From contig NZ_KI912608.1 of NCBI RefSeq assembly GCF_000519265.1, positions 881,665 to 945,664 of the forward strand: 64,000 nucleotides of DNA, given 5' to 3'. The position numbers and the translations under genes are program-made. Of this stretch, positions 20,451 through 45,118 are shown one piece after another (positions within the stretch are counted from its first letter, which is position 1; each line of letters opens with the position of its first letter). A model generated the notes under the pieces. The model did no database searches and was not told where the DNA came from. It was given only the letters and a program-made list of their open reading frames with translations. Origin of the DNA: Desulfonatronum lacustre DSM 10312. GTDB lineage: Bacteria > Desulfobacterota > Desulfovibrionia > Desulfovibrionales > Desulfonatronaceae.

Positions 20451-20475
20451 AATTTGATTCGTACTTTCCCATCAA

Positions 20476-20550
<75 letters not shown>

Positions 20551-27986: not shown

Positions 27987-28075
27987 TTATCGGTATCGGA
28001 ATCGGAATCGGGATCGATACGGTTTGTTCGCCAATAGTCCTATTTCGATACCGATACCGACCCCGACCCCGATAA
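27987..28075. repeat. Six-base-unit palindrome, element B
   Basis: Left arm from 27987 (TTATCGGTATCGGAATCGG and on) and right arm to 28075 (ending CCCCGACCCCGATAA) are phase-matched inverted arrays of TCGGnn units, with the two variable bases often unmatched. The loop is about 22 bases and includes GCCAATA. It lies between convergent htpG and flgE, just before the terminator. Confidence 0.7.
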
Positions 28076-28086
28076 CTGCATTATAT

Positions 28087-28122
28087 AAAAGCCCCTGGAG
28101 GTGATCCTCCAGGGGCTTTTTT
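28087..28122 (+). terminator. Bidirectional rho-independent terminator between htpG and flgE
   Basis: AAAAGCCCCTGGAGG, loop TGAT, CCTCCAGGGGCTTTT with flanking A and T runs. The symmetry lets it end both htpG (plus) and the fliK-flgD-flgE operon (minus, about 100 bases after the flgE stop). Confidence 0.95.
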
Positions 28123-28219
28123 CGGTCTTCTCGATTACCCCTTTGCCTCGCCTCACCAAAAACAACAGGCCGGAAGCATCTCGCTCCCGGCCTGTCCTGA
28201 TTACCGATCCGTCAACCCG

Positions 28220-29713
28220 TTATCTCTTCATCCGAATCACTTCATCCAGCATCGTGTCCGTGGTGGTGATGGTCTTGCTGTTGGCCTGGAAGCCTTTCTG
28301 GGTGCTGATCATCTTCACGAATTCCGTGGCCAGATCCACGTTGGAGAGTTCCAAGGTGTTGGAGGAAACCGTCCCCAGGTTGCCCGTACCGGCTATGCCC
28401 GTTAATGGAGGCCCCGAAGCTCCGGTTGCCGCGAACAGGTTACCGCCTTCCCGGTTCAATCCCCAGATGTTGTTGAAGTTGTTGATGGTCAGCGCATACA
28501 GATCGAGAACTTGTCCGTTGGAATAGCGTCCGGTCAGGACGCCTTCCCTGTTGACGGAAATGTTCTGTAAAAAACCAGCGGTATAGCCATCCTGGGTTTG
28601 ATACAATGTGGTTGAAGCATTATTGTAAGCTGTTGTGGAGAGAGCATTTCTTTGCCAATCAGCAATGTCGCCCGCAAAAGCTCCTGCTACGTATCCAGCG
28701 ACATCGCCTACAAATCTTGTTCCTAGAGTGAATTCAATATTTTGAGGTTCTCCAAGAAAATTTGCAGCAAATGTTGGATAGCCATTTCGTGAAATAAAAT
28801 ATGGATCGCCATTGCCATCTTCTGTTTCGAGAGTTGGGTCTGCTCGCATATTGATAATCTCTCCAGCAGGATTAAACAGAAGATCTCCTGTCATTAACAA
28901 TCCAGTGCCATTTTCTTGATCATCTTCAGGTGGAATCGTTACAATAAATTGCCATATTGTAGTTCCATCTGGGGGATCAGGCTGGTCAGCATCCGGCCTT
29001 TTATCAAAGTATACCGTTACATTATGAGCGCCGCCGTTCGCATCGTAAATCTTCATTGTAGTTTGATATTCAAACTCTTGATTTCCTATATCACCAGGTG
29101 GTGGGCCATCCCATGCATCTATAAGATCGTCGACACTGGACCTGGCGGCGGAATCAAGGTTGACCACGGCGTTGACAGTTGATGTCGGTGATGGAGGTGA
29201 TTGGAAGTTGTCTAATTGAATGTCTCTGGGAACACCTTGGATATTGACACGTCGAGCACCGACACCTTCACCATCAACCTCATCGACCAATGGGTCGACC
29301 GTATCCCGGGCAATACCCCAGCCTTGAACCCTATACCCATGCGGATCGACGAGAAATCCTTCCTGGTCAAAACGGAAGTTTCCGGCGCGGGTGTAGTAAT
29401 TTATTTCATCACCAGGAGGGCTGACGGTAAAGAAACCGTTGCCGGTGATGGCCACGTCGGTGGACTCGTTGGTGGTTTCAAGGGAACCCTGGCTGAAGTC
29501 GCCCAGGACGGCGCCGACCGCGACGCCGCGACCTATCTGGCCCACACCGTTGGCCACGCTGACGTTCTGGCTCATGAAGTCTTCAAAGTGCATGCGAGAG
29601 CCTTTGAACCCGACGGTACTCACGTTGGCGATGTTGTTGCCGATCACCCCCATTTTCTGGCCGTGCCCCTTGAGGCCGCTGACTCCCGTCCACATTGATG
29701 CGGTGAGACTCAT
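28220..29713 (-). CDS. flgE: FlgE, flagellar hook protein
   Basis: 497 aa. N-terminal rod/hook motif SLTASMWTGVSGLKGHGQKM followed by GNNIANVSTVGFKGSRMHF, and a C-terminal LSNVDLATEFVKMISTQKGF, both diagnostic. It polymerises to the hook joint outside the cell. The middle third (about residues 170-370) is the surface-exposed D2/D3 region and has a clearly lower GC content than either end: 40% by hand count over 28741-28980 versus 64% at 29461-29580. That suggests replacement or recombination of the exposed domain. The gene is last in fliK-flgD-flgE. Confidence 0.95.
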   Translation of the reverse strand: MSLTASMWTGVSGLKGHGQKMGVIGNNIANVSTVGFKGSRMHFEDFMSQNVSVANGVGQIGRGVAVGAVLGDFSQGSLETTNESTDVAITGNGFFTVSPPGDEINYYTRAGNFRFDQEGFLVDPHGYRVQGWGIARDTVDPLVDEVDGEGVGARRVNIQGVPRDIQLDNFQSPPSPTSTVNAVVNLDSAARSSVDDLIDAWDGPPPGDIGNQEFEYQTTMKIYDANGGAHNVTVYFDKRPDADQPDPPDGTTIWQFIVTIPPEDDQENGTGLLMTGDLLFNPAGEIINMRADPTLETEDGNGDPYFISRNGYPTFAANFLGEPQNIEFTLGTRFVGDVAGYVAGAFAGDIADWQRNALSTTAYNNASTTLYQTQDGYTAGFLQNISVNREGVLTGRYSNGQVLDLYALTINNFNNIWGLNREGGNLFAATGASGPPLTGIAGTGNLGTVSSNTLELSNVDLATEFVKMISTQKGFQANSKTITTTDTMLDEVIRMKR

Positions 29714-29771
29714 GATTGTGCTCCTTTGTATAGCCCGCTCGCGCTCTTAAGAGGTGAGGGGGTGAAATGAA

Positions 29772-30593
29772 TTACTGGGTCAGACTGTTCAGAAGGTCTT
29801 CGGTGGAGGATGATCCGCCGAACAATCCGTTAAGATTCGCCAGGTTTCCTGTAATATTTTGGAGTTCCGATGCCAGCGCATTGCCTTGCGCCGCCCCTGC
29901 TCCGACGACTTCCTTAACGTCCGTGATATTGACTCTTCGTCCGTCCTGAAGGCGGAGGAAGGTTTGCCCATCCTCGCTGACCACCGCTGAAACCACTCCG
30001 CTCGTCTTGGTGGAAACCATCAACGGCTCTCCGTGCTTGCCTTCCGCGGCCATGGCAATACTGTATACTCCGTCGGGCAGCGGATTGCCGGAGTGGTCCC
30101 GGCCATCCCAGACAAATTCGTGTTCGCCGGGCATGCGACCGGGCAACGTGATGGTGCGGACGATGTTGCCGAAGGAATCGAAGATGTTCATGTGCAGCTT
30201 TTCAGCCACGTCCGGCAGGGAATAGGTGAAGGAGCTGACGGAGTCTCCATCCTTGCTGATGCTTCGCCCTTCGGCTCGAATCTCTTTGCCGATGAAGTTG
30301 ACTGCGTTCAACGTTTCCTGACGGGCAAACGAATCCTTGAAGCCCTCGATGGACTCGGAGATGTTGCTGAGTTGCTCCAGGCTGGAGAATTGAGCCAATT
30401 GAGCGACGAATTCCTTGTCGTCCAAGGGGTTGAGAGGATCTTGGTTGGCAAGCTGGGTGGTCAACAAGCGCAGAAAGGCATCTCTGTCCAATCCGCTTTT
30501 ATCGCCTGTCCTCGGGTCCGGTGGAGCGAAGTCTCGTTCGGCTCGGCCGACCAGATTGCCAGCGTGGGGGCTGACATATGGGCTTGTCGACAT
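29772..30593 (-). CDS. flgD: FlgD, flagellar hook-capping protein
   Basis: 273 aa. The conserved N-terminus LDRDAFLRLLTTQLANQDPL with NPLDDKEFVAQLAQFSSLEQ identifies FlgD. A FlgD tudor-like and Ig-like region follows (RTITLPGRMPGEHEFVWDGR, then GNPLPDGVYSI). It caps the growing hook so FlgE subunits can add. It lies 58 bp upstream of flgE and 30 bp downstream of fliK on the same strand. The C-terminal extension (about 235-273) is longer than in enteric FlgD. Confidence 0.95.
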   Translation of the reverse strand: MSTSPYVSPHAGNLVGRAERDFAPPDPRTGDKSGLDRDAFLRLLTTQLANQDPLNPLDDKEFVAQLAQFSSLEQLSNISESIEGFKDSFARQETLNAVNFIGKEIRAEGRSISKDGDSVSSFTYSLPDVAEKLHMNIFDSFGNIVRTITLPGRMPGEHEFVWDGRDHSGNPLPDGVYSIAMAAEGKHGEPLMVSTKTSGVVSAVVSEDGQTFLRLQDGRRVNITDVKEVVGAGAAQGNALASELQNITGNLANLNGLFGGSSSTEDLLNSLTQ

Positions 30594-30623
30594 GATCGTT
30601 CTCCTGGAAAGAGGAAAATTTTG

Positions 30624-32564
30624 CTAGGCGATCAGGTTGATGCCGCCTTCTCGGGGTGAATTAAGCAAAATCGATGCCTGTTCCGAAGCGTCCTGGCCTC
30701 CGGCATCATTTTTTTGCAAGCCTCGCCCCAGGGCGGCCCACTGGGTATTGGCACCCTGTTCCTGGAACTTTTGTCCGTCCGAGCCCTGCCAGAGCTGGGT
30801 GAACTGGTTCTGGTCCTGCAACTGGGTCGAAACTTCCAGGCGCGTGACCCGCAGGCCCTGGGACTCCAGGGACTGGCGGAGCAAAGGCATGTTTTCGGCG
30901 ATGATCTGGCGGGCTTCCTGGTTTTCCGCGCGCAGCACAGCCTGGACTTCTTTGCCTACCACTCTGAGGTTCACGGTCAGGCTGCCCAGATCCGCGGGAT
31001 GCAGCTGCAAGGTCAATTGCTGGCGGCCCTGGCCCATGTTCTGGAGCAGGCCGGAATGGACCTGATTCAGGACGGCCCGGTGCGGAGCCGGGGCATTGGC
31101 CAGGACCTTGCGGGCCGCGGCTTCGGTATTGGTGGCCGCGGTGGTCTGGCCCAGGATGGATCGTGGGTCCGTGCCGGCATCCTTGAGCAGGCCCCCGGAT
31201 GCCTCGCCGCTGCCCTGGACGCTGACCTTGTTCCAGAAGGATTCCCAGCCCTGGGCGGACTGGTTCGCGGCATTCTGGGCATTGGGGTTTTGCCAGGGCG
31301 TTCCCTGGCCGTTGCGGTCCATCATGCCGGAATTTTTGCCGTCGCCTCCCGAGGATACTGTTTTAAGCGCGTTCACGGCCTCGGTCATGGACATCCGGTG
31401 GGCGTTGGGGCCGTTGTCCGCGGCCTGCATCCGGAGATCACGGTTTTCAGAAGCTGCCATAATCCTTTGGATTTCCGCCAGTAATCGGTTTCTGTCCTGA
31501 TCCGAGCCAGCTGCGGCCTCCTTGATCATGCCCAGGATTTTTTTCAGCTCCTCAGGAGACAGTTCCTTTTCCGTGGCCTGCTGCAGGATTTGGTCGAGGT
31601 TCGGAGATGATCCGCCTGCGTTCTGTTTGAGAGCGTTCTGAAACGCGGCCAGGGTCTCCGAATTCAGCTTCAGCTCGCCCTTGGCCGCGGCGTCAGAGAC
31701 TCTTTGCAGCAGATCGGCGTTTTCCCGGAGCGCCTTGTGGACCACGGAACGTAGTTCAGCCGTCATTTCGATTCCAGCCTTTCTCATGGCCTCGGCAATG
31801 GCTTGCATGGCCTGCACGGATTTCGGGTCCACATTCCCGAAACTTTCGCCGCTCAATCCGAAAAACTTCCCCAGAGCGGGGTCCGTCGTCCCGGAAGCCT
31901 TGTCGCCGCCCATCAGGCCCAGGGCTTGCAGCAAAGCCAGGATTTCCGCCGAGGTAAAGGAAAATTTCTCCTCGCCGGTCAGGTTGGAAAGCAATTCCTC
32001 GATGCGCTTGAAGACCGCGTCCAGTTTATTGTCCAGGATGTCACCAGCCAGGGCCAGGGCGTCGTCCGGAGAGAAGCCGATCTTTTCCAGCAGGCTGATC
32101 AGGTCCTTTTCCTGCTCCGGAGTGAGCTTGATATTGGCCAGTTCCTTCAGCGGCTCGCGCAAGACGTCCAGGACTTGCCGCCACGTGACGGTCTCGTTGG
32201 AATCAAAGAGATCCTCAAGACGATCCAGAGTTTCCTCGTCCACGCCCAGCTCTTCCAGCTTCGGGCGCAACTCGGCAAAATCTTCCCTGTTTACGGGCAC
32301 GTCTAATTCTCGGGAACGTGGAAGATCCTGGTGAACGGACTTGGGCGGTTCCGGATGGTTTCGCCGGTCGTCGCTTCGAACGTGTTCCGAACGCGTCGTC
32401 TCCGGCGAAGGATGGAATGGTGCATCGTCCCGAGTGTCGCGCAGGAATGCCCCGAACACATCTTCGAAATTTTTGTTTCCGAGGTTGAACAGCGGAGCGT
32501 CCAGGGCGAACCCCGTGTTGGCCGAGGAACCGGATTGGGCTGAAAAAGAGGGAAAAATCTGCAT
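30624..32564 (-). CDS. fliK: FliK, flagellar hook-length control protein
   Basis: 646 aa, long and low in hydrophobicity over most of its length, as expected for a molecular ruler. The C-terminal Flg_hook domain is clear: QQLTLQLHPADLGSLTVNLR, then AVLRAENQEARQII and LLRQSLESQGLRVTRLEVS (about residues 515-600). It is secreted through the flagellar export gate and switches export from hook to filament. An AAGGAGAAA site precedes the ATG. First gene of the operon. Confidence 0.93.
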   Translation of the reverse strand: MQIFPSFSAQSGSSANTGFALDAPLFNLGNKNFEDVFGAFLRDTRDDAPFHPSPETTRSEHVRSDDRRNHPEPPKSVHQDLPRSRELDVPVNREDFAELRPKLEELGVDEETLDRLEDLFDSNETVTWRQVLDVLREPLKELANIKLTPEQEKDLISLLEKIGFSPDDALALAGDILDNKLDAVFKRIEELLSNLTGEEKFSFTSAEILALLQALGLMGGDKASGTTDPALGKFFGLSGESFGNVDPKSVQAMQAIAEAMRKAGIEMTAELRSVVHKALRENADLLQRVSDAAAKGELKLNSETLAAFQNALKQNAGGSSPNLDQILQQATEKELSPEELKKILGMIKEAAAGSDQDRNRLLAEIQRIMAASENRDLRMQAADNGPNAHRMSMTEAVNALKTVSSGGDGKNSGMMDRNGQGTPWQNPNAQNAANQSAQGWESFWNKVSVQGSGEASGGLLKDAGTDPRSILGQTTAATNTEAAARKVLANAPAPHRAVLNQVHSGLLQNMGQGRQQLTLQLHPADLGSLTVNLRVVGKEVQAVLRAENQEARQIIAENMPLLRQSLESQGLRVTRLEVSTQLQDQNQFTQLWQGSDGQKFQEQGANTQWAALGRGLQKNDAGGQDASEQASILLNSPREGGINLIA

Positions 32565-32590
32565 GGTCTTTTCTCCTTGTCCGCGTATGT

Positions 32591-32606
32591 TTCAAGAGTC
32601 GTTCCA
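32591..32606 (-). promoter_or_regulatory. Candidate sigma-54 promoter of fliK-flgD-flgE
   Basis: On the minus strand TGGAACGACTCTTGAA has TGG and TTG at the right spacing for -24/-12 (ten bases between GG and GA); the -12 GC is GA. It is about 30 bases upstream of the fliK ATG. Sigma-54 control of hook genes is common in polar-flagellated bacteria. Confidence 0.4.
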
Positions 32607-32682
32607 ACTTCCTCGCTTCCGGTACTGGGGGCGTCCCACGTCGCCCTTGTCCGCGACGGCCTGTTGCGATAGGAGAAAGGTC

Positions 32683-33066
32683 ATGTCTTCGCCACGGGCG
32701 ACTTCTCGGAAGCCCCCTCAAAAAATATATCAGACGACCTCTCAGGCGACCTCCCAGGCGACGTCTCGGTCACTTCCGCGGTATTCAAGCCGCATGTACC
32801 TGCAACTCGCCCCGGACGGCATCTCTCTGCTGAAGTTTCTTCTGGAGGCCGAGGACAATCTGGCCTATTTGAGCACGGTGAGCCCGCACACGGCGGTGGT
32901 CAAGCTGGTTTTCGCCCCGGGCCGGGAGCGGGAAATTTGGAAGTTTCTGGAGACGGCGCACCATCAATTGACGTTTCGTGAGGTGGTTACGTTCCCGGGT
33001 GGGTGGAAGAGCGAGGAAAAACGGAAGGAATCAAGAAAGGATACGGAGGAACGGGATGCAAAATGA
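32683..33066 (+). CDS. DUF4911-like protein
   Basis: 127 aa from ATG at 32683 after AGGAGAAAGG. The N-terminal 37 residues are low complexity with a 12-base repeat that gives TTSQATSQATSR. The rest (MYLQLAPDGISLLKFLLEAE, then AVVKLVFAPGREREIWKFLE) matches the shape of the DUF4911 family: a short alpha/beta domain starting MYLxL. Function of the family is unknown. It overlaps the next gene by 11 bases, so the pair is probably co-translated. Confidence 0.72.
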   Translation: MSSPRATSRKPPQKIYQTTSQATSQATSRSLPRYSSRMYLQLAPDGISLLKFLLEAEDNLAYLSTVSPHTAVVKLVFAPGREREIWKFLETAHHQLTFREVVTFPGGWKSEEKRKESRKDTEERDAK

Positions 33067-33529
33067 ACGATGTCGCCGTATGACGACACCATGGATGGCC
33101 GTGCTGCTGGTCGCGGCCTGGTTGAGTCTGGGGATGGGCGGGCTCGGCGACTCGGATGTGGTCACCAAAATTCCCAAGCCGGAGCGGTCGTTTCTGGTGG
33201 AATTGGTGGACGCCGACGACGTCTCCTTCGCCTTGCACGACTTTTCCATGAACGGCCTGACCATGCTCCCGGTCACGGCGGGAAAGGCGGACATCAGTCT
33301 GGATTTCGCCGAAATCATGGAAGCCCGGATGTATCTCCAGGACGACCGAGTCCTGTCCAAGGTTTTGTTTCGGAATCAAACCACCCAAGAGTTTATGATC
33401 GATCCGGGTCTGGCGTTCTATGGATTGACGGATTGGGGCAAGTTGAAGATCACGGCCGGAAATATCCGACGGATCACGTTTTTGGGCCGGGCGGACAAGC
33501 CCTTGCCTGCCGGAGCGGGGACGGATTGA
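33056..33529 (+). CDS. Secreted or membrane-anchored protein of unknown function
   Basis: 157 aa from ATG at 33056, after ACGGAGGAACGGG; ATG at 33080 (MTTPWMAVLL) is the alternative. An N-terminal hydrophobic segment (WMAVLLVAAWLSLGMGGLG) looks like a signal peptide, without a lipobox. The mature part includes FLVELVDADDVSFALHDFSM and a basic C-terminus. No family recognised. It overlaps the DUF4911 gene, suggesting a joint function. Confidence 0.65.
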   Translation: MQNERCRRMTTPWMAVLLVAAWLSLGMGGLGDSDVVTKIPKPERSFLVELVDADDVSFALHDFSMNGLTMLPVTAGKADISLDFAEIMEARMYLQDDRVLSKVLFRNQTTQEFMIDPGLAFYGLTDWGKLKITAGNIRRITFLGRADKPLPAGAGTD

Positions 33530-33538
33530 ACCTCCTTT

Positions 33539-34381
33539 TCATTCGTCCAAATTGAAAAACGCTCGGGCCGTGTCCCCGCAGGCCGTCCAGATATCCTGAA
33601 TCGGCTGGCCGCGCAGGTCGGCGACGGCTTGGGCCGTATAGCAGAGATAGGCCGGTTCGTTGCGCTTGCCTCGAAAGGGATGCGGGGTCAGGAACGGGCA
33701 GTCCGTTTCCAGAACCATCCGGGACAAGGGAATGTGGGGGATTGCCTCTCGCAGGGCCGTGCTTTTGGGAAAGGTGACCGGGCCGGGGATGGAGATATGC
33801 CAGCCGTCGGCCAAAATCTGTTCCGCCAACTCCCGGCCCTGGCCGAAACAGTGCCAGAGCAGCGGGCGATCCCTGAACCCCAGGTCCCGCAAGATGGTCA
33901 GGGTTTCCGGCTCGGCTTCTCGGCTGTGGACGATCACGGGCAGATCCAACTCCCTGGCCAGGGCCAATTGCTCCTGGAAAGCCCGAATCTGGACGTCCCT
34001 GGGACTGCGGTCCCAGTAGAAGTCCAGCCCGATTTCGCCCAGGGCGCGCAGCCCCTTGTCCTCATCCTGGTCCTGATTTTGGGCGAACAGCGCGGCCATG
34101 TCCGCCAGGACGTCCGGCGTGACGGTGGACGCCTCGTGCGGGTGGATGCCCAGGGTGAAGAACATCCCGGCAATGGTGGACAATCGCGGCTGGTGGGCCC
34201 GGTACGCCTCGGGCGACAGAAAGACGTTGCCGAACCAGGCCACTCCGGCCGCCCTGGCCCGATCCAGGACGTCATCCAGGTCCTCGGCGAAGTCCGGAAA
34301 ATCCAGGTGAGCATGAGTTTCCACGCCCCCGGGGGGCAGGCCGAACGTCTCCGGCAAGGGGATGTTTTTTTTTGACGACAT
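33539..34381 (-). CDS. tatD: TatD family metal-dependent hydrolase
   Basis: 280 aa. Metal ligands of the TIM-barrel family are visible: ETHAHLDF (His23, His25), GIHPHEA, GEIGLDFYWD, VIVHSREAE and LETDCPFLTPHPFRG. TatD proteins are Mg-dependent DNases or deoxyribonuclease-like hydrolases in the cytoplasm. It converges with the gene before it, ending 9 bp from its stop. Start ATG at 34381 follows AGGAGGAGCAC. Confidence 0.93.
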   Translation of the reverse strand: MSSKKNIPLPETFGLPPGGVETHAHLDFPDFAEDLDDVLDRARAAGVAWFGNVFLSPEAYRAHQPRLSTIAGMFFTLGIHPHEASTVTPDVLADMAALFAQNQDQDEDKGLRALGEIGLDFYWDRSPRDVQIRAFQEQLALARELDLPVIVHSREAEPETLTILRDLGFRDRPLLWHCFGQGRELAEQILADGWHISIPGPVTFPKSTALREAIPHIPLSRMVLETDCPFLTPHPFRGKRNEPAYLCYTAQAVADLRGQPIQDIWTACGDTARAFFNLDE

Positions 34382-34472
34382 ATGGTGCTCCTCCTTCGGG
34401 CGGGGAACCTACGGCAGGCGGCGTTGGTTTGTCACGCGCCGCGGGCCGAACCTCCGGGTCAAACCTGTTCTC

Positions 34473-34562
34473 ATCGAAATCGCGATCGAAATCGAAATCG
34501 GAACATGCTGTGAGTAAGGCATCTTTATAGACATGATGTTCGATTTCGATCACGATTTCGAT
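34473..34562. repeat. Six-base-unit palindrome, element C
   Basis: Arms 34473-34496 and 34539-34562 pair at 23 of 24 positions (units ATCGAA and ATCGCG). The 42-base loop holds CATGCTGTGAGTAAGGC. Single units continue to about 34600 (ATACCGATTC, then TATCGAAATC). It sits in the divergent gap between tatD and the next gene, so it must be close to one or both promoters. Confidence 0.75.
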
Positions 34563-34625
34563 ACCGATTCAGGTAACGAGTGAGTATCGAAATCAAATCA
34601 GTTCAAAACTACAACTACCCTCGCG

Positions 34626-36284: not shown

Positions 36285-36290
36285 GCATTC

Positions 36291-37016: not shown

Positions 37017-37386
37017 TCTCGCCCTTGCGGCCCTGACCGGCGTTTCGAGCCCGAGTTTTTTAGGGGTGTCCGTGGGAGGAGCCGGGGGAGAAGCCTGGGG
37101 CGTGTTCTGGGTTTTGCTGGGCATGGCCGCGGCGACCTATCTCACCCGGGCCGCTGGTTTGTTTCTGATCAGCCGGGTTTCGCCCACGCCGCGAGTGGAG
37201 GCCTTTCTCCGGCATGTCCCGGCCTCGATCCTGGTGGCCATCGTCGTGCCCAACCTTGTTCAAGGCGGGCCGGCGGAACGGGCCGCCGCCGGAATCACGG
37301 CCCTGGTCGCCATCCTGACCCGCAACCTGATCGCCGCCCTGTTCGCCGGCGTCCTGGCCGTGGTCGCGTTGCGGGGAGTGATATAG
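37006..37386 (+). CDS. azlD: AzlD, small subunit of branched-chain amino acid exporter
   Basis: 126 aa with four hydrophobic helices. AAATYLTRAAGLFLISR and LRHVPASILVAIVVPNLVQ are the AzlD family signature. The first 30 residues (MDADLALAALTGVSSPSFLG) form a glycine-rich extension; translation could instead start within it. It is followed by palindrome element D 11 bases after the stop. Confidence 0.93.
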   Translation: MDADLALAALTGVSSPSFLGVSVGGAGGEAWGVFWVLLGMAAATYLTRAAGLFLISRVSPTPRVEAFLRHVPASILVAIVVPNLVQGGPAERAAAGITALVAILTRNLIAALFAGVLAVVALRGVI

Positions 37387-37397
37387 TGATCTTACCG

Positions 37398-37490
37398 CGG
37401 TGTCGGAATCGGTATCGGAATCGGTATCGAACTCAGGTTATTGGCATACAAACAATATCGATTCCGATACCGACACCGACACCGACACCG
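37398..37490. repeat. Six-base-unit palindrome, element D
   Basis: Arm ends CGGTGTCGG (37398-37406) and CCGACACCG (37482-37490) match exactly; inside are phase-matched TCGGnn units (GGAATCGGTATCGGAATCGG) with mismatches at the variable bases. The loop includes TTATTGGCATAC, whose reverse complement carries GCCAATA, also found in the loop of element B. It separates azlD from the FemAB-like gene. Confidence 0.72.
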
Positions 37491-37512
37491 AAAGAGAATT
37501 GTTGAATTGGAA

Positions 37513-38694
37513 ATGGTATTACCCATGACCACCATCCCCACCCTGACCGCGATTTGGCATAACGCCATTGCCGACATTGATCCCGATGCCTGGAACAGGC
37601 TGTGTTCCGGTCGGGATGTTCCTTTTTTGCGCTGGGAGTGGCTGCATTTATTGGAAGCGTCCGGTAGCGTCGGCTCTGAAAGCGGCTGGCAGCCGTGTCA
37701 CCTGACGATTCACGATCAGGGGCGGATGGTCGGGGCCGCGCCGCTGTATTTGAAAACGCACAGCGACGGGGAGTTCGTCTTTGATCATGCCTGGGCCCAT
37801 CTGGCCGCGAGCATGCGGGTGCGCTACTACCCCAAACTGGTAGGCATGAGTCCGTTCAGTCCGGTCACGGCTTATCGCTTTCTGATGGCCGGGAACGTGA
37901 ATCAGGCCAAGTTGAGCGCGGCCATGATTCTGGAAATCGAGAACTTTTGTCGGCGACGCGGGGTGTCCGGGTGCGGGTTTCACTTCGTGACCACCAACTG
38001 GGGGCGAATTCCGGAAAGCCTGGGTTACAAGGTCTGGGTGCATCAGGGGTTCGTCTGGCTGAATCCCGGCTTCACTTCCTTTGACGAGTATCTGAACGGG
38101 CTGAAGGCCAATCAGCGCCGCAACGTACGTCGGGAGCGCGACCGTCTGGTCCGGCGCAAAATCACCACTCAATGCCTGTTCGGTCGGGAGATTCCGGAGT
38201 CCTATTTCGCCCTGATGTACGAACTGTATGCCCGGCACAACGATCGGTTCGGGCAGTGGAGCTGCAAGTTTCTGACCCCGGCCTTTTTTCAGGGACTCCG
38301 GAAAACCTTTCGTGACAACCTGTTGATCATCGCGGCCTTCGAACCGGATGAACCTACTCCCATGGCCATGTCGCTGCTCATCACGGACGGGGACCGGCTC
38401 TACGGGAGATACTGGGGCACGTGGCGGGACGAAGAGTTCCTGCATTTCGAACTGTGCTACTACAAGCCCATGGAATGGATGATTAGGAAAGGAATCCGGC
38501 TCTTTGACCCGGGCATGGGCGGCGTGCACAAGGCGCTGCGCGGATTCGTCTCCGCGCCCAATTACAGCTTGCATAAATTTTTCGATCCCCGGCTGCACGG
38601 AGTGATGGAATCCACCATTTCGGAATACAACCAGATGGAAATGCGGGACATCGCCGCCCTGAACAGCATCCTGCCCTACAAGCGACGAGGGTGA
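37513..38694 (+). CDS. GNAT/FemAB-like protein (DUF482, peptidoglycan-type N-acyltransferase fold)
   Basis: 393 aa from ATG at 37513 (or 37525); an ORF start at 37441 lies inside the palindrome and reads RFRYRHRHRHRKR, so I reject it. Seen: WEWLHLLEASGSVG, then PLYLKTHSDGEFVFDHAW and YYPKLVGMSPFSPVTAYRF, and a C-terminal half FRDNLLIIAAFEPDEPTPMA followed by YGRYWGTWRDEEFLHFELCY. This is the pattern of the FemAB-related DUF482 proteins, N-acyltransferases of unknown substrate. No secretion signal. Its 5' end is set by palindrome D and its 3' end is followed by E. Confidence 0.85.
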   Translation: MVLPMTTIPTLTAIWHNAIADIDPDAWNRLCSGRDVPFLRWEWLHLLEASGSVGSESGWQPCHLTIHDQGRMVGAAPLYLKTHSDGEFVFDHAWAHLAASMRVRYYPKLVGMSPFSPVTAYRFLMAGNVNQAKLSAAMILEIENFCRRRGVSGCGFHFVTTNWGRIPESLGYKVWVHQGFVWLNPGFTSFDEYLNGLKANQRRNVRRERDRLVRRKITTQCLFGREIPESYFALMYELYARHNDRFGQWSCKFLTPAFFQGLRKTFRDNLLIIAAFEPDEPTPMAMSLLITDGDRLYGRYWGTWRDEEFLHFELCYYKPMEWMIRKGIRLFDPGMGGVHKALRGFVSAPNYSLHKFFDPRLHGVMESTISEYNQMEMRDIAALNSILPYKRRG

Positions 38695-38708
38695 ACGGGG
38701 GGATACAT

Positions 38709-38834
38709 CGGATCGGTATTGAAATCGAAATCGTGGTCGAAATCGAACGTCATATCCAAGAAGATGGCGTAATCACCGAGTGATGCACAATTTTTTCCAG
38801 ATTCCGTTTTCGATTTCGATTTCGATCGCGATTT
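38709..38834. repeat. Six-base-unit palindrome, element E
   Basis: Left arm 38709-38745 (GAAATCGAAATCGTGGTCGA core) and right arm 38811-38834 (CGATTTCGATTTCGATCGCG) are inverted arrays in the same phase. The 65-base loop holds GGCGTAATCACCG, related to the loops of C and F. It lies between the GNAT gene and plsC. Confidence 0.7.
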
Positions 38835-38919
38835 GGATTATTGATGAGAACAGATTTGCCCTGATCATTTCCTGGCCGCATTTACATTTTGATCATAACA
38901 GATTAGGAGAGGGCGCTGC

Positions 38920-39645
38920 ATGTTGTCCATTATTCCTTTCTATCTTTTCTTTGTTCCGCTGACCATTTTCTTCGCGATCGTCGTCATAATCGCTTCTTTT
39001 TTCGACCGTAGCGGAAATCTTTCGAACCGGATCAGTATCTTCTGGGGCGGGCTGGTTTGCCGGTTGGCCGGGGTCACGGTGCATGTGGACCGCGGAGATT
39101 TCGATCCGGATGGAAAGTATATCCTGATGGTCAATCACCAGAGCTGGTTCGATATTCCGGTGTTGCTGGCGGCCTTAAAAGGGCATCAGTTCCGGTTCGT
39201 GGCCAAGAAAAGCCTGTTTCGCATCCCCTTTTTCGGTCAGGCCATGTCCCGAATCGGGTACATCGGCATTGACCGGGAAAATCCTCGCCGCGGGATCAAG
39301 AGCATTCAGGAAGCCATCGCCAAGTCCGACCACGCCTCCATTCTTATTTTTCCCGAAGGCTCCCGCTTCGAAAAGCTTGGGAGCTTCAAAATCGGGCCGA
39401 TGATCCTGGCCATCAAAAGCGGACGTCCCGTGGTGCCGGTATTGATCTCCGGAACCTACGCCGTGCTCCCGAAAGATTCCTGGCGCATCCGACCGGGTTC
39501 CGTCGCGGTGCGGTTCTTTCCCGCCCACGCGATCCAAGACGCCTACACGCTCAAGGAGCGTGAACGACTCAAAGAGGATATATGGAAAATCATGCACGCG
39601 CACTCCAAGGAGACTGACGAATGGTTGGACAAGAAACGTCCGTGA
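38920..39645 (+). CDS. plsC: PlsC-type 1-acylglycerol-3-phosphate acyltransferase
   Basis: 241 aa. One N-terminal hydrophobic segment (about 5-28), then the catalytic HxxxxD as NHQSWFD (His73, Asp78) and the substrate motif FPEGSR (144-149), with GSFKIGPMILAIKSGRPVVP downstream. It makes phosphatidic acid from lysophosphatidate at the inner membrane. AGGAGAGGG precedes the ATG. The 3' end overlaps the RNase J gene by 25 bases. Confidence 0.94.
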   Translation: MLSIIPFYLFFVPLTIFFAIVVIIASFFDRSGNLSNRISIFWGGLVCRLAGVTVHVDRGDFDPDGKYILMVNHQSWFDIPVLLAALKGHQFRFVAKKSLFRIPFFGQAMSRIGYIGIDRENPRRGIKSIQEAIAKSDHASILIFPEGSRFEKLGSFKIGPMILAIKSGRPVVPVLISGTYAVLPKDSWRIRPGSVAVRFFPAHAIQDAYTLKERERLKEDIWKIMHAHSKETDEWLDKKRP

Positions 39646-41279
39646 CCCTGACCCCTCTGGGAGGGTTGGGCGAGATCGGGATGAACTGCATGCTGCTGGA
39701 GTCCGCCGACGGCATGATCATTATCGATTGCGGACTGATGTTTCCCAGTGACTTTCATTACGGCGTGGACGTTCTGATCCCGCGCTTCGAAACCATCCTG
39801 GCCCGGAAGGACAAGCTCCGGGGCATCGTCCTGACCCACGGCCACGAGGACCATATCGGAGCCTTGCCTTGGCTGCTGCCCTACGTGGACGCCCCGCTGT
39901 TCAGTTCCGAGTTTACTCTGGCCCTGCTGGAGAACAAGCTGCGTGAGCACAACCTGAACAAATACGTGGATTTTCGCCGGGTGAACAGCAACGACTCCGT
40001 GGAGTTGGGGCCATTTACCGTGCATTTTTTCCAGGTCTGTCACTCCATCATCAACGGTTACGGCCTGGGCATCGAAACCCCGGTGGGCCGGATCGTGCAC
40101 AGCGGCGACTTCAAGATCGACCCCACGCCCATGGACGACCAGTTTACCGACCTGGAAGCCTTTGCCAAATTTTCCGAACCCGGCGTGCATCTGCTGCTTT
40201 CCGACTCCACCAATATTGAACGGGAAGGGGCGACCTTGACCGAGCTGGAGATCAAGGGTGCACTGGAGCGGGTCTTCCGACAAACCGAAGGCCGGATCAT
40301 CATCACCTTGTTTTCCAGCCATATCCAGCGGATGCAGGAAGTCTTCGACCTGGCGGCCTTGACTGGAAGAAAGGTCGCCGTCAGCGGACGCAGCCTGGTG
40401 AACAACATCGCCCTGGCTAAGGACCTCGGGTATCTGCGCTTGGCCCCGGACGCTCTCTGTTCTCTGGACGACATCGAGGACCTGCGCGACGATCAACTGG
40501 TTCTACTGGTCACCGGCTCCCAGGGCGAACCCCTGTCCGTGCTCAGTCGGATCGCCCAGGGAGAACACCGCCAGATCAGCATCCGTCGGGGAGACCTGGT
40601 CCTGATGTCCTCACGGATCATTCCGGGCAACACCAAGGCCATTTCGCGGCTGATCAACAACTTGTACCGCCTGGGCGCGGAAGTGCTGTACGAAAAGGTC
40701 CAGGGCATCCACGCCTCGGGCCATGCCCACCGGGACGAATTGGTCACCATGCTGAACACGGTCAAGCCCAAATTTTTCGTGCCCGTTCACGGGGAATACC
40801 GGCACTTGGTCAAACACTGTCAACTGGCCCGGGAGTGCGGAGTGGCCCCGGAGCGGGCCATCGTCCTGGACAACGGACAACCATTGACGTTTTTCGAGCG
40901 CGGGATCCGCTTCGACGATCGCATCCGGGTGGATTCGACCCTGGTGGACGGCAAAGGCGTCGGCGACGTGGGCGCCAGCGTGCTCAAGGAGCGCAAACTG
41001 CTGGCCGAGGAAGGCCTGGTGGTGGTGCACGTGGTCATCGACCAGGAGACGGGACACATTCTGGTCGGCCCGGAATTGATCTCCAAGGGGTTTGTCTTTG
41101 AACAGCAGTTCGAGCACGTCCTGGATGATTCCAAGTGCCTGATCCTGGACGTGTTCGAGTCCAATCCCAAGGCCTCACCCAAAAAAAACGCGGAACGCAT
41201 CCGCGTGGTCCTGCGCAACTTTTTCCGCAAGGTCCTTCACCGCGATCCCGTGGTTTTGCCCGTGGTGGTCGGGGTGTGA
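39621..41279 (+). CDS. rnj: Ribonuclease J
   Basis: 552 aa. The beta-lactamase fold has the metal motif HGHEDHIG (His73, His75, Asp77, His78), and beta-CASP features GEYRHLVKHCQLA and HASGHAHRDEL follow. RNase J is a 5'-3' exonuclease and endonuclease in mRNA turnover and rRNA maturation. The C-terminal domain is present to RVVLRNFFRKVLHRDPVVLP. The start ATG at 39621 lies inside plsC, so expression is coupled to lipid synthesis genes only by position. Confidence 0.95.
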   Translation: MVGQETSVTLTPLGGLGEIGMNCMLLESADGMIIIDCGLMFPSDFHYGVDVLIPRFETILARKDKLRGIVLTHGHEDHIGALPWLLPYVDAPLFSSEFTLALLENKLREHNLNKYVDFRRVNSNDSVELGPFTVHFFQVCHSIINGYGLGIETPVGRIVHSGDFKIDPTPMDDQFTDLEAFAKFSEPGVHLLLSDSTNIEREGATLTELEIKGALERVFRQTEGRIIITLFSSHIQRMQEVFDLAALTGRKVAVSGRSLVNNIALAKDLGYLRLAPDALCSLDDIEDLRDDQLVLLVTGSQGEPLSVLSRIAQGEHRQISIRRGDLVLMSSRIIPGNTKAISRLINNLYRLGAEVLYEKVQGIHASGHAHRDELVTMLNTVKPKFFVPVHGEYRHLVKHCQLARECGVAPERAIVLDNGQPLTFFERGIRFDDRIRVDSTLVDGKGVGDVGASVLKERKLLAEEGLVVVHVVIDQETGHILVGPELISKGFVFEQQFEHVLDDSKCLILDVFESNPKASPKKNAERIRVVLRNFFRKVLHRDPVVLPVVVGV

Positions 41280-41307
41280 GGGACGAATTCAAAAACGGGA
41301 GTTTTTT

Positions 41308-42087
41308 ATGCGAGTCGTGCGAGTGCAGTATGCGGGGAAGACGTTTTACGCCACCCTGGAGCCGGACCATGTGCTGTGTCTGAACAGGGACATCGGGTTG
41401 AATGATCCGATCCCTCTGGACCAGGTGGTCTTGCTGCCTCCGGTCGCGCCCAGCAAAATCATCTGCGCGGCCTTGAACTACCATGCCCATGCCGAGGAAA
41501 TGGGCAAGACCGTACCGGAGGAGCCGGTATTGTTCTTCAAGCCGCCGTCCTCGATCATCGGTGCGTGGCAGTCCATTGTCCTGCCGTCGCAATCCTCACG
41601 GGTGGATTATGAAGGGGAGTTGGCCGTGGTCATCGGCAAACCGTGCCGCCGGGTCGGCGTGGCCGAGGCCTCGGAATACATTTTCGGCTACACCTGCGCC
41701 AACGACGTCACGGCTCGGGACCTGCAGGCCAAGGACGGTTTGTACGGCCGCGCCAAGGGCTTCGATACCTTTGGCCCCATCGGGCCCTGGATCGAGACCG
41801 AGGTGCCGGACCCGGCCGCATTGACCCTGACCACCCGGGTCAACGGCGAGGTCCGCCAGGAAGGCAGTACCGGCGACATGATTTTCAGCGCCTGGGAGTT
41901 GCTCAGCTTCGCCTCCAGCGTGATGACCCTGCTGCCCGGAGACGTGATCCTGACCGGAACGCCGCCCGGAATCGGACCGATGCGTCCGGGCGATGAAGTT
42001 CAGGTGGAAATCTCCGAGGTGGCCCTGCTGACCAACACCGTGGTGGCGGAGCAGGCTCAGGAATCGGAATTCACGGTCATTCAATAA
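41308..42087 (+). CDS. Fumarylacetoacetate hydrolase family protein
   Basis: 259 aa. FAH core: KIICAALNYHAHAEEMGKTV, then FFKPPSSIIGAWQSIVLP, VDYEGELAVVIGKPCRRVG and GYTCANDVTARDLQAKDGLY, with metal-binding Glu/Asp residues in DYEGELA. Members include acylpyruvase (FAHD1-like), 5-oxopent-3-ene-tricarboxylate decarboxylase and 2-hydroxyhepta-diene-dioate isomerases; the substrate cannot be chosen from sequence. GGGAG precedes the ATG. Probably part of the plus-strand run with rnj and the RdgC-like gene. Confidence 0.9.
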   Translation: MRVVRVQYAGKTFYATLEPDHVLCLNRDIGLNDPIPLDQVVLLPPVAPSKIICAALNYHAHAEEMGKTVPEEPVLFFKPPSSIIGAWQSIVLPSQSSRVDYEGELAVVIGKPCRRVGVAEASEYIFGYTCANDVTARDLQAKDGLYGRAKGFDTFGPIGPWIETEVPDPAALTLTTRVNGEVRQEGSTGDMIFSAWELLSFASSVMTLLPGDVILTGTPPGIGPMRPGDEVQVEISEVALLTNTVVAEQAQESEFTVIQ

Positions 42088-42111
42088 CCATGATTGGATA
42101 GGGAGTCGAAC

Positions 42112-42840
42112 GTGGGTTTTCTTTCCGCGAGCACGGGACTGACCAGATACCGTCTGCCGGACGAGGTCGGGGACGACGTGCTTTCCGATGTCCAGCTCAG
42201 GCTGAAACGGTTTGCCTTCGTGGACATCGACCAGAGCATGGAGGAGCGGTCCTTCGGCTGGGTCTGCTTCGACGACCTGTTGGACGCGGAGTGGACCACG
42301 GCTGGTCCGGAAAAAGGACCGTACTTGGCCTTTTCCCTGCGCCTGGACACCCGGCGCGTCCCTCCGGCGGTGTTCAAGAAACATTGGATGATCGCCCTGC
42401 GGGAGCGGATGGCCCAACTGGTCGCGGAAGGCAAGAAGTTTCTGAGCAAGGACCAAAAAACCGAACTGCGCGATCAGGTCCGGCAACGCCTGCTGATGCG
42501 CAGTCTGCCCATCCCGGCGGTGTTCGACGTGGTCTGGAGCGTACGGGACAACCGGGTGTATCTGGCCACCACCAATACCAAGGTCCGCACCCTGTTCGAG
42601 GAACTGTTCGCCCGAACCTTCGATGCCGAGCTGGAGCCGCTGACTCCGGTGGTTCTGGCGCTGGAACTCCTGGGAGAAGCGGCGGAAGGTCGGTTGACCG
42701 GATTTGAGGGATCGATGTTCGTTCCGATCCGTCGAGCCGCCGTGGAGACAGCCCGAGAGGCTTTTGGGCAGGCCGCCGCGCGGCGCGAAAGTGACCGCGT
42801 TCGCGACGCATCCGATGAAGAAGGGGAGGGCGTGTCGTGA
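42112..42840 (+). CDS. RdgC-like recombination-associated protein
   Basis: 242 aa with a GTG start at 42112 after AGGGAG; an earlier TTG at 42094 lacks a site. Segments VVPPAVFKKHW-like (RRVPPAVFKKHWMIALRERM), KKFLSKDQKTELRDQVRQRL and VFDVVWSVRDNRVYLATTNT follow the order of RdgC, a ring-shaped DNA-binding protein that limits RecA. It is shorter than E. coli RdgC (about 300 aa), and the next gene overlaps it by four bases, so the two may act together. Similarity is moderate, so the role is inferred. Confidence 0.7.
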   Translation: MGFLSASTGLTRYRLPDEVGDDVLSDVQLRLKRFAFVDIDQSMEERSFGWVCFDDLLDAEWTTAGPEKGPYLAFSLRLDTRRVPPAVFKKHWMIALRERMAQLVAEGKKFLSKDQKTELRDQVRQRLLMRSLPIPAVFDVVWSVRDNRVYLATTNTKVRTLFEELFARTFDAELEPLTPVVLALELLGEAAEGRLTGFEGSMFVPIRRAAVETAREAFGQAAARRESDRVRDASDEEGEGVS

Positions 42841-43376
42841 GTCTGGAAACCATCAAAGCCAAGGACCTGGCTCTGGGGCAGGAATTTTTGACCTGGATCT
42901 GGTTTCGCAGCGAACGCAGCAACGGCCAGTGGCAAACCACGGACGGCATCCCCTTTGGCCTGACCTTCGAGGGCCGAGTCATGGTCCAAAGTGGTGAAGG
43001 CGAATACCTGGAAACCGCGGTCAGCAGCGGCCCCGGCGCGGAACTGCACGAGGCAAAAAGCGGTTTGTTGCGCGGCAAGAAGGTGCATCAGGCCAAGCTG
43101 CGCGTGGAAGAGGACGGCCACGGCTGGCAGGTAACGGTAAAGGCCGAGGATTTTTCCACGGCCGGCTTCAAGACGCCCAAGGTGGAGTTTCGCCTGGAAG
43201 AGGGCCAGGACCCGGACGGTCCGTTCCTGGAGAAGATGTACCTGTTGGAGCGGGCCTTGTTCTTTTTTGACCAGATGTTCTTACAATTTTTAAAATTGCG
43301 GTTTTCCTCCGAATGGAGCGACGAATTGAACGCCGTTCGCCGGTGGGTCGACACGACCTCCGGTTCCACTCCGTAA
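42837..43376 (+). CDS. Conserved-looking partner of the RdgC-like gene, unknown function
   Basis: 179 aa from GTG at 42837, overlapping the RdgC-like stop (GTGA). It is soluble and acidic, with no motif I can name. Segments: FLTWIWFRSERSNGQWQTTD, then VSSGPGAELHEAKSGLLRGK, and a hydrophobic helix RALFFFDQMFLQFLKL near the C-terminus. The overlap with the RdgC-like gene suggests a subunit or a split C-terminal part. Confidence 0.6.
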   Translation: MSLETIKAKDLALGQEFLTWIWFRSERSNGQWQTTDGIPFGLTFEGRVMVQSGEGEYLETAVSSGPGAELHEAKSGLLRGKKVHQAKLRVEEDGHGWQVTVKAEDFSTAGFKTPKVEFRLEEGQDPDGPFLEKMYLLERALFFFDQMFLQFLKLRFSSEWSDELNAVRRWVDTTSGSTP

Positions 43377-43423
43377 CCCCAAATCAGCCGTTGCCCAAAC
43401 GACCCTTCACAGGAGCATATTGT

Positions 43424-44848
43424 ATGTCCGATTCCCAGATGGAGCAGAGCTTTGCCGAGATGTTCGAGGCCTCTGAAATGGAAATGAAGCCCGACCTGCG
43501 CGTGGGCGACCGGATCAAGGGGCGGATCATCGCCGTCAGCGAGGAAATGGTCTACGTTGACACCGGAACCAAAAGCGACGGGGTGATCGAGAAGCAGGAA
43601 CTCCTGGACAAGGACGACGTATTCTCGTTGCGGGAAGGCGATGAGGTTGAATTGTTCGTAGTGGCCGTCCAGGGCGGCCAGATCCGCCTGGCCAAGGCCC
43701 TGAGCGGAGAAGGCGGCCTGGAACAATTGCGGCAGGCCATGGAAGAAGGCATTCCGGTGGAAGGCAAGATCAAGGAAACCTGCAAGGGCGGGTTCCGGGT
43801 CCGGATTCTGGACAAGACGGCCTTCTGTCCGCTCAGCCAGGTGGACCGTCGTCCCGTGGTGGATCCGGAAGCCCTGGTGGGCGAAACCATGCAGTTTCTG
43901 ATCACCAAGGTTGAGGAGCGCGGACGAAATATCGTGGTGTCCCGCCGGGCGCTTTTGGATCTGGAATTGGCCGAGACCTTGGCCGAATTTCTTAAAAAAG
44001 TCTCGGTCGGGGATCTGCTCCAGGGCACGGTATCCCGGTTGGCCCCTTTCGGTGCGTTCGTGGAATTGGCCCCGAGTCTGGAAGGGCTGGTGCACGTCTC
44101 CGAACTGGGCTGGTCCCGCAATGTTTCTCCGGAAGACGTGGTGTCCGTGGGCGACCAAGTCACGGTCAAACTGCTCAAAGTCGACGACCAGGGCAAGGGA
44201 ATCCGCCTGGAATTGTCCATGAAACAGGCCATGGAAGACCCGTGGAGCCGGTTGGCCGACGAGGTCCGGGTGGGGGCCAAGCTGAGCGGACGGGTGACCA
44301 ACCTGGCCCCGTTCGGTGCGTTCATGGAAATCGTTCCCGGAATCGAAGGCCTCGTGCATGTGAGTGAGATGAGCTACCTGAAGCGGGTGCACAAGCCCGG
44401 AGACATGGTGGCCGTGGGCGACAGCGTCCCGGTGATGGTTAAGTCCATTGATCCGCAAACCCGGCGCATCGCTTTGTCCATGCGCGACGCCGAGGGCGAT
44501 CCCTGGGAGGGAGTGGCCGAACGATTCAAGAAAGGCCAGATGATTCAGGGGACCATGGAAAAGCGGGAAAAATTCGGCATGTTCGTCCGGCTCGAGCCCG
44601 GAGTCGTGGGCCTGTTGCCCCTTTCCCGTCTGGAACGCGCCGAGGACGAGGCCTATGCCAAGGCCAAGCCCGGAGACGTGCTGTCGGTTGTCGTCGACGT
44701 CGTGGACGTGGACAAGCGTCGTATCTCCTTGGCTCTGCCCGGTGCCGACCAGGGCGAGGACTGGCGTGGCCACGCGGCCCAGGAAACGGCTCCCATGGGG
44801 TCATTGGGCGAGCAGTTGAAAAAGGCCATGGAGGCCAAGGAAGAGTAA
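43424..44848 (+). CDS. S1 RNA-binding domain protein, ribosomal protein S1-like
   Basis: 474 aa from ATG at 43424 after AGGAG (ORF to 43313 is rejected). It has five S1-type OB units: about residues 25-95 (VGDRIKGRIIAVSEEMVYVD), 104-170 (weaker), 190-258 (VGDLLQGTVSRLAPFGAFVE), 276-345 (VGAKLSGRVTNLAPFGAFME) and 365-430 (KKGQMIQGTMEKREKFGMFV). Units three and four carry the LAPFGAF core. It may be a shorter S1 or an S1-like RNA chaperone; the true rpsA may be elsewhere. Palindrome F follows. Confidence 0.88.
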   Translation: MSDSQMEQSFAEMFEASEMEMKPDLRVGDRIKGRIIAVSEEMVYVDTGTKSDGVIEKQELLDKDDVFSLREGDEVELFVVAVQGGQIRLAKALSGEGGLEQLRQAMEEGIPVEGKIKETCKGGFRVRILDKTAFCPLSQVDRRPVVDPEALVGETMQFLITKVEERGRNIVVSRRALLDLELAETLAEFLKKVSVGDLLQGTVSRLAPFGAFVELAPSLEGLVHVSELGWSRNVSPEDVVSVGDQVTVKLLKVDDQGKGIRLELSMKQAMEDPWSRLADEVRVGAKLSGRVTNLAPFGAFMEIVPGIEGLVHVSEMSYLKRVHKPGDMVAVGDSVPVMVKSIDPQTRRIALSMRDAEGDPWEGVAERFKKGQMIQGTMEKREKFGMFVRLEPGVVGLLPLSRLERAEDEAYAKAKPGDVLSVVVDVVDVDKRRISLALPGADQGEDWRGHAAQETAPMGSLGEQLKKAMEAKEE

Positions 44849-44887
44849 AGAGGGGAGGCGCGGGCTATTGTTTAGGAGATGCTCGGG

Positions 44888-45118
44888 GTTGAAATCGAAA
44901 TCGGTATCGTAACTATTCAGCATAGAGTAATGCCGTTGTCGGGGTCGGTATCGGGATCGAAAACGCTGGGTAGCGTTCAAATTTTTCCTGTTCCGATTCC
45001 GATTCCGATAGCGACCCCGACTCCGATTGCCGGAGCAAGGGCGGAAACAAAATGTGCTGAATAGATACTCGGTATCAAAGCTTTTTTTGATTTCGATACC
45101 GATTTCGATTTTGTCGGC
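44888..45118. repeat. Six-base-unit palindrome, element F (outer), interrupted by an inner palindrome
   Basis: Outer arms: AAATCGAAATCGGTATCG at 44892-44909 pairs exactly with 45094-45111, and TATTCAGCA at 44914-44922 pairs exactly with TGCTGAATA at 45055-45063. The inner palindrome at 44938-45021 sits wholly inside the outer loop. It lies between the S1 gene and the ntrY 3' end, abutting the latter by 10 bases. Confidence 0.75.
44938..45021. repeat. Inner palindrome nested in element F
   Basis: GTCGGGGTCG at 44938-44947 pairs with CGACCCCGAC at 45012-45021; between them are phase-matched TCGGnn units. It has the same build as elements B and D and sits inside the loop of the outer element, as if one copy had been inserted into another. 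Confidence 0.65.

Follow-up and report, generated by a model that had tools for sequence, protein, structure and literature searches.

Intergenic palindromes of six-base units in Desulfonatronum lacustre, probable gene-less relatives of a PF05635 mobile element

The intervening sequences (IVSs) of the 23S rRNA genes of Coxiella and Leptospira are described, in the parts of the literature available to us, as units of about 430 bp whose complementary ends fold into a stem and whose loop contains an S23p open reading frame (ORF) (PMC4990558). In Coxiella the stem measures 28 bp and variable tandem heptamers (GACAGAT) are found upstream of the S23p ORF (PMC4990558). The same source treats the movement of IVSs and the role of S23p as open, with both transposition-remnant and mobile-element hypotheses reported (PMC4990558). 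Here we analyse a family of palindromes made of phased six-base units that lie between the genes of Desulfonatronum lacustre DSM 10312 (genome G000, 3.76 Mb in a single contig) and that were noticed in a stretch of 64,000 nucleotides, hereafter the window (G000:881665-945664). With a probability of roughly 0.7, these palindromes are short, ORF-less relatives or derivatives, resembling miniature inverted-repeat transposable elements (MITEs), of a free-standing IVS-like mobile element that carries a PF05635 gene.

PF05635 genes between mirrored arrays

Two long elements of G000, at 330072-330531 and ~372072-372560, contain a PF05635 ORF between inverted arrays. PF05635 is the 23S-rRNA-intervening-sequence protein family, a four-helix bundle. 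One ORF (P0001) scored 69.6 bits with Pfam PF05635 (cut-off 33.8) and 65.1 bits with NCBIfam TIGR02436 (cut-off 24), and the other scored 57.0 and 56.2 bits with the same profiles; a structure-database search returned PDB 2gsc (E 9.6e-11). With scores above the curated cut-offs, both ORFs are members of PF05635 / TIGR02436. The full element thus consists of an array of 6-bp units, the four-helix-bundle ORF and the same units inverted. The 5' array, situated upstream of the core ORF, is an inverted copy of the 3' array, which is translated in both G000 elements (tails ...GIDPDPDYDPDTEG and ...VDFDFDHDFDGDSRENKPEEAEQ). Each 3' hexamer reads as an Asp codon followed by a variable codon (GAY NNC), as in DFDHDFDFD, and the variable positions are the first two bases of the latter. 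Because the unit amounts to two codons, in which the Asp bases are fixed and two others vary, both the six-base phase and the variable bases are explained, and the rhythm appears to stem from two codons of the PF05635 protein tail. The preliminary description of the window had dismissed the dipeptide ORFs running through the palindromes as not being genes. This holds for the copies of the window, but the Phe-Asp frame looks like a fossil coding tail, since this array encodes, in related elements, the C-terminus of a PF05635 protein.

Both ORF elements are located between protein-coding ORFs, outside the 23S rRNA genes. From array to array, the 330k element is 81% identical in DNA to one contig of G059, and the flanks are unmatched. 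At this site an ORF, taken by us as a thioesterase gene from reading and not from a family search, fills the place in all six congeners examined; G000 retains only its end, so that the element has replaced it. The 372k element is found at the same position in G001 and G003; it is absent from G004, G005 and G006, where different sequence fills the gap.

A pattern covering the whole element matched at least 80 stretches in Desulfobacterota, Chromatiaceae, Opitutales, Planctomycetota, Lentisphaerae, Sumerlaeota, Nitrospirales and others. Twenty-six genomes were chosen from these matches, and were therefore preselected for palindromes; a protein search found matches at 57% identity or more in 12 of them, which fall in Chromatiaceae, Planctomycetota, Lentisphaerae, Sumerlaeota and Desulfobacterota. 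Among the remaining 14, G079 contained pieces of 44-56% identity, six had only distant matches (26-39%) and seven had none. The close relatives are 57-75% identical and most of them lie between mirrored arrays. Their arm unit varies from copy to copy (TCGAAA, TCGTTG, CGTACG, TTCTCG, CGTCCC, TCTTAA) and agrees between the two arms of a copy: complementarity of an element's own arms averaged 23.3 versus 13.9 for swapped arms, and none of 20000 permutations reached 23.3 (32 rows, four being duplicate second pieces of the same element). Of a chosen list of 20 hexamer-clade loci 15 passed, and in 12 of these the ORF runs past the 3' array before it stops. The translated tails are acidic runs of Asp/Glu-X, for example DFDYDNDND, ENENENED and CDHDHDCDH.

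Inverted arms were scored with one geometry in all sets of loci. Arms scoring at least 16 were present in 20 of 21 clade loci, always with a period of 6, against 2 of 196 control genes. The 21 loci are those left from 37 after removal of three duplicates, seven loci below 40% identity and six beyond the length limits. Other PF05635 loci reached the same score in 17 of 21 cases in the order set (period 7 in 11, 8 in four, none in two) and in 23 of 25 in the phylum set (7 in 17, 8 in three, none in three). The order set comprises 21 of 29 loci, eight being left out for unusable flanks or match length and L207, a clade member, having been moved out beforehand; the phylum set comprises 25 of 30, leaving out five without usable flanks or match length, and these 30 represent the best-matching loci, no genome contributing more than one, from the 87 matching among 148 genomes searched. 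In an earlier test with another geometry, a score of at least 18 was reached in 24 of 28 clade rows, in 13 of 19 rows of other PF05635 genes and in 1 of 218 control genes. One control gene scored 29, which is accounted for by another dispersed repeat on both sides. At G000 ~324060-325290 (L040), two copies of a dispersed repeat, CAGTCCGTTGAAAAACT...CCAATTGCTGCGTCGC, flank one gene; this repeat also fills part of a gap in G005.

In a tree from which 6 of 47 rows had been removed for frameshifts or truncation of the core, the hexamer clade formed one branch (support 100/100), with hexamer arms in 20 of 22 rows inside and in 0 of 19 outside. Of the 29 loci with 7-mer or 8-mer arms in the order and phylum sets, 26 have an ORF that ends ahead of the 3' array or within it. 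In the analysis of ORF stops as a whole, the frames of L343 and L345 are probably wrong and were counted as found. We are evenly divided on a broader proposal, in which PF05635 genes in general would be carried by one superfamily of mobile palindromes, their arms being mirrored tandem arrays of 6-, 7- or 8-bp units, and the rRNA IVSs would be the sub-group that landed in rRNA genes.

The Coxiella IVS plan, as far as the cited source gives it, fits that of the mirrored-array PF05635 elements. Like rRNA IVSs, the latter have complementary ends that enclose an ORF, as the arm test on clade loci and control genes shows. Unlike them, the ORF elements of G000 lie between protein genes and not in helix 45 or another 23S rRNA site, their arms are mirrored arrays of 6-8 bp units with the 3' array translated in one clade, and hundreds of ORF-less copies exist.

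The association of gene and palindrome was examined in 61 genomes of the order Desulfovibrionales. The clade gene (at least 57% identity) was found in G000, G001, G003, G006 (fragments), G018 and G059, all with at least 17 pattern matches; this is 6 of the 14 genomes with at least five matches versus 0 of the 47 with at most one (p ~5e-5 by hand, shared ancestry ignored).

The same genomes bear on a second candidate driver, a RAYT (repetitive extragenic palindrome (REP)-associated Y1 transposase), which the preliminary description had suggested looking for. REPINs, the elements moved by RAYTs, are dispersed extragenic inverted pairs forming hairpins, according to the part of the source available to us, and the palindromes resemble them in this as well as in size and hairpin form (PMC3116915). 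Moreover, Y1_Tnp genes occur in 37 of the 61 genomes, most palindrome-rich ones included. The distribution is nevertheless discordant: G006 has palindromes but no Y1_Tnp match, G013, G024 and G060 carry strong Y1 genes and zero pattern matches, and G033 has 31 Y1 matches but only 8 palindrome matches. Unlike REPINs, the palindromes have arms made of variable unit arrays with no conserved REP, and no Y1 transposase lies beside them in the G000 stretches examined. Conversely, no palindrome lies beside the fetched Y1 genes of G000, G003, G004, G005, G009 and G018, the nearest bona fide palindrome being more than 5 kb away, with some stretches stopping at contig ends. The exception is G012, where one of two Y1 genes is within a dense field of one-sided arrays. 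In this genome, L149 (G012:2160001-2180000) contains dense one-sided hexamer arrays about every 240 bp, with other palindromes, near a Y1 gene; these arrays have one side only and belong to another, tandem composite, and were rejected. The Y1 search in the 61 genomes and a partial reading of flanks thus lend no support to RAYT-driven movement, which we hold to be hardly tenable in general and reject for G000.

Census and turnover of the palindromes

A search for six-phase TCG/CGA cores found 61 paired elements in 804 kb of G000 (a 740-kb stretch plus the window), five of them in the window, from which about 285 are estimated for the whole genome. None was found in three first-order Markov shuffles or in the reversal of the 740-kb stretch. 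Over the whole genome, (ATCGNN)3ATCG matched 297 + 290 = 587 times, with 0 matches in the reversed control. Re-inspection of the window found the five full elements and the remnant where they had first been placed (Table 1).

The 61 elements divide into 28 of a GG type, with a loop of 34-35 nt in 22, and 33 of an AA type, with a loop of 16 nt in 13. The build of paired arms around a loop stands, but the loop, first given as 22-130 bases, measures 16 to 65 nt. Within families the loop is conserved and the arms vary by whole six-base units, as judged by eye. The 16-nt-loop family also occurs in Desulfonatronum sp. records (loops were inspected in 40 of the at least 80 stretches, for AA-type elements with an 18-48 nt gap). 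As first described, the fixed bases pair and the variable ones often do not: pairing at the two N positions is at or slightly below that of permuted arms, with 0.776 and 0.261 versus 0.803 and 0.339 in the GG type, and 0.447 and 0.478 versus 0.500 and 0.526 in the AA type. Long perfect hairpins may be avoided, which would account for this slight deficit, or the deficit may have no meaning.

Table 1. Palindromic elements of the window (positions counted from its first base) and family I copies with target duplication.
Feature	Position	Strand	Details
Remnant, three CGA units of a single arm	25856..25873	.	degraded CCGATTTCGACC also in G007 gap; none in G005 gap
Full GG-type element	27988..28075	.	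arms 27989-28016 and 28046-28072; loop contains TTTGTTCGCCAATA
Full AA-type element	34470..34579	.	arms 34473-34500 and 34541-34579
Insertion relative to G005 with GG-type palindrome	37386..37524	.	arms 37398-37430 and 37459-37491
Full AA-type element, long loop	38705..38863	.	arms 38712-38745 and 38811-38832; end GAGAACAGATTTGCCCTG
Older AA-type hexamer array, left part, split by family I MITE	44883..44908	.	
Family I MITE, 160 bp	44909..45068	.	ends GTAACTATTCAGCA / TGCTGAATAGATAC; internal GG-type palindrome
Older AA-type element, right part	45069..45112	.	duplicated TCGGTATC, then array GATTTCGATACCGATTTCGAT
Family I copies with exact 8-bp duplication	140672, 150826, 252390, 265753, 281932, 403004		plus the window copy

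Gene order around the window is preserved, in pieces, in six congeners. In G005, one of the two closest (86-92% identical over long matched stretches), no hexamer palindrome occurs in any of the gaps corresponding to the five full elements of the window, so these elements come and go. The gap matching the 28.0-kb element shows no visible hexamer array in G001, G003, G004, G005 or G007; a GC-rich hairpin with a T-run adjoins this element at window ~28087-28123 and is kept in G005 without the element. At 37.4 kb, the G005 site is uninterrupted (GGAGTGATATA, then immediately ATGACC), and the G000 insertion has one MITE-like end, GTAATACCATTTCCAATTC, at its right side. At 45.0 kb, G001, G003, G005 and G007 have gaps of 56-82 bp without a hexamer array, G007 lacking both the 28.0- and 45.0-kb elements where it is covered. 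At 34.5 kb, the gap is free of arrays in G005 and G006, those of G003 and G004 contain one-sided arrays and that of G001 a short array, and the 38.8-kb element is missing from G001, G003, G005 and G006 with a different, nested hexamer element in the gap of G004. These arrays and the nested element weigh against a simple picture of mobility; they imply that some gaps have been hit repeatedly or are older. The mobile palindrome, one of the possibilities initially raised, is supported by the presence and absence observed between congeners, which do not all share the elements at orthologous gaps, together with the ends and duplications of family I and the ORF-bearing unit common to G059 without its flanks.

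Family I consists of units of 160-187 bp with 14-bp inverted ends (GTAACTACTCAGCA/TGCTGAGTAGATAC). Among 16 end pairs, an exact 8-bp duplication is seen in seven and none in nine; with terminal inverted repeats and target duplication, the family qualifies as a MITE. Ends with at most one mismatch occur in 76 + 80 copies, and the subterminal sequence and arms recur in G059, which belongs to another family of the order. The copy in the window is bounded by the exact duplication TCGGTATC at 44901-44908 and 45069-45076. It was inserted in an older AA array, whose sequence was duplicated as TCGGTATC, which explains the outer arms at 44.9-45.1 kb; what had been described as a single element at 45.0 kb is present but is two, one inserted in the other. 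No IS66 transposase was detected in G000, IS66 and Y1 being the only transposase families searched, and IS66, considered on the basis of a likeness to the GTAA ends, was consequently rejected. From window 17405 onward, GATACCCGCCTTCGCGGGTATGAG comes after an GTAACAACTCAGC end; this may be a MITE that shares the end type and whose palindrome is of another kind, without hexamers.

Do the palindromes serve the host, as terminator, mRNA processing site or nucleoid-protein site? The preliminary description had considered an RNA hairpin or a nucleoid site, and predicted folds are indeed stable: RNA fold z values of the five window elements are -3.75, -5.59, -8.05, -2.20 and -4.49, and the stability of four was unmatched by shuffles, that of the 38.8-kb element being matched by 6 of 200. 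The position is mostly intergenic as well (57 of 61), which agrees for the most part with the statement that they occur only between genes, although four overlap a called ORF. By a crude gene call made for this analysis, 33 elements lie between co-directional, 15 between divergent and 9 between convergent genes, versus 220/66/46 available gaps; as stated at the outset, all orientations are occupied, with no clear preference. There is accordingly no clear excess between convergent genes where a terminator is concerned, the elements are missing from the same gaps in congeners, and the separate T-run hairpin at 28.0 kb persists in G005 on its own. The variable positions show no covariation, and Rfam at the gathering threshold over 124 kb matched only three tRNAs. 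Placement and conservation therefore give no support to a host function, which we regard as very improbable. Three tandem tRNA genes are found at window 20289-20547.

Origin of the short copies

The short copies have the same arms and the same Asp-X grammar as the ORF elements, and their descent from the latter is supported, short of proof. The AA families probably derive from ORF elements, judging from sequence likeness: their 3' ends resemble that of the 372k element, and the tail motif GARAAYAAA is kept in 13 of 61 palindromes, in the Asp frame in 8 of the 13 (e.g. DFDHDFDFDTDPECPWFENKIAL).

Could the palindromes instead be ordinary MITEs of DDE transposases with a slippage-prone hexamer palindrome inside, their likeness to PF05635 elements being due to convergence or chance capture? 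Like MITEs, they are short, non-autonomous and present in many copies, and family I combines classical, DDE-like ends with 8-bp duplications. Ends of this type also delimit MITEs that contain no hexamers, the family I ends are common to G059 while the loops differ, and the clade gene is missing in five palindrome-rich genomes. However, the interior is, unlike that of MITEs, a phased hexamer palindrome with a coding grammar, and there is no IS66 partner in G000. The Asp-X grammar recurs in translated arrays of ORF elements, the clade gene and the palindromes co-occur (6 of 14 versus 0 of 47 genomes), some AA copies have tail remnants (such as ENKIAL) in the Asp frame, and at the 3' end they are similar to the 372k ORF element. 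We therefore consider this explanation unlikely, though with a real share of the probability.

Several observations weigh against descent from a mobile PF05635 element. Clean target duplications were found for family I only, other families showing end-like sequences, and none convincing was seen when sought in the 13 copies of the 16-nt-loop family. Since the loops of family I are, by eye, unlike the ORF, any descent of this family would rest on its arms and ends. In nineteen short G059 stretches, the match to their ORF element is confined to the arms, except for one 20-base piece at chance level outside them, and no ORF remnants were seen in the loops of short G059 elements. Retention of the tail in frame (8 of 13) is weak, with p ~0.035 by hand. 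Covariation at the variable bases was sought in the 61 G000 elements and none was found, which speaks against selection for a perfectly paired stem in this genome. Arms were poor in rows L222, L246 and L221b of the complementarity test, and the own arms of L214 match hardly better than those of others; in 3 of the 15 hexamer-clade loci the ORF ends ahead of the 3' array. The 330k element is not a clean insertion, having taken the place of part of a gene. No clade gene was found in G004 (347 matches), G009 (175), G012 (157), G005 (92) and G007 (43), nor in G033, G038 and G045, with 5-8 matches; short copies must thus persist or spread without that gene. The protein had no match in a plasmid collection, and the whole-element (AA-type) pattern none in viral contigs. 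Finally, to our knowledge, no PF05635 protein has been demonstrated to mobilise anything.

If the palindromes do derive from such an element, the arms would pair as a stem in the transcript or in single-stranded DNA, and this stem might be recognised by the element's protein or, by analogy with rRNA IVSs, by RNase III, which would make insertions in transcribed gaps tolerable. Slippage would add or remove units in steps of six, and deletion of the ORF would leave arms that could have spread with transposases encoded elsewhere. Avd of the diversity-generating retroelements resembles PF05635 in sequence and structure, in the part of the source available to us (PMC10053308), and this likeness hints at nucleic-acid handling as the job of the PF05635 protein.

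Implications for IVS-like elements and short-unit arrays

In the literature searched, at title and abstract level and mostly open-access, no description was found of mirrored short-unit arrays around PF05635 genes or of the palindrome itself, in agreement with the initial impression that no named element of this type exists. Closest among intergenic repeats are the TAACTGA heptamers of Beggiatoaceae, likewise short-unit intergenic arrays with a patchy distribution across distant bacteria (PMC4679880). Unlike the palindromes, they are described as direct repeats, mostly upstream of start codons, and the available text does not mention a helix bundle, S23 or intervening sequences (PMC4679880). 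The palindromes are not categorically new biology; what is new is the free-standing, multi-copy form of the IVS/S23p kind.

The results explain how non-coding repeats can come to have a strict six-base phase, namely as fossil codon pairs, and provide a candidate origin for short-unit intergenic arrays. They are also a warning that such arrays can mimic functional RNA or, perhaps, arrays of clustered regularly interspaced short palindromic repeats (CRISPR). Mirrored 7-mer arrays might, at a guess, have been mistaken for CRISPR-like repeats (PMC10910872, available to us in part). If PF05635 genes are indeed the cargo of a wider superfamily, many unexplained intergenic hexamer and heptamer repeats would be arms or ORF-less relics of PF05635 elements, and unit length would obey a coding rule, with 6-bp arrays translated as a tail and 7- and 8-bp arrays mostly not. 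Free-standing, multi-copy, cross-phylum relatives with readable ends make the movement of IVSs and the role of S23p testable.

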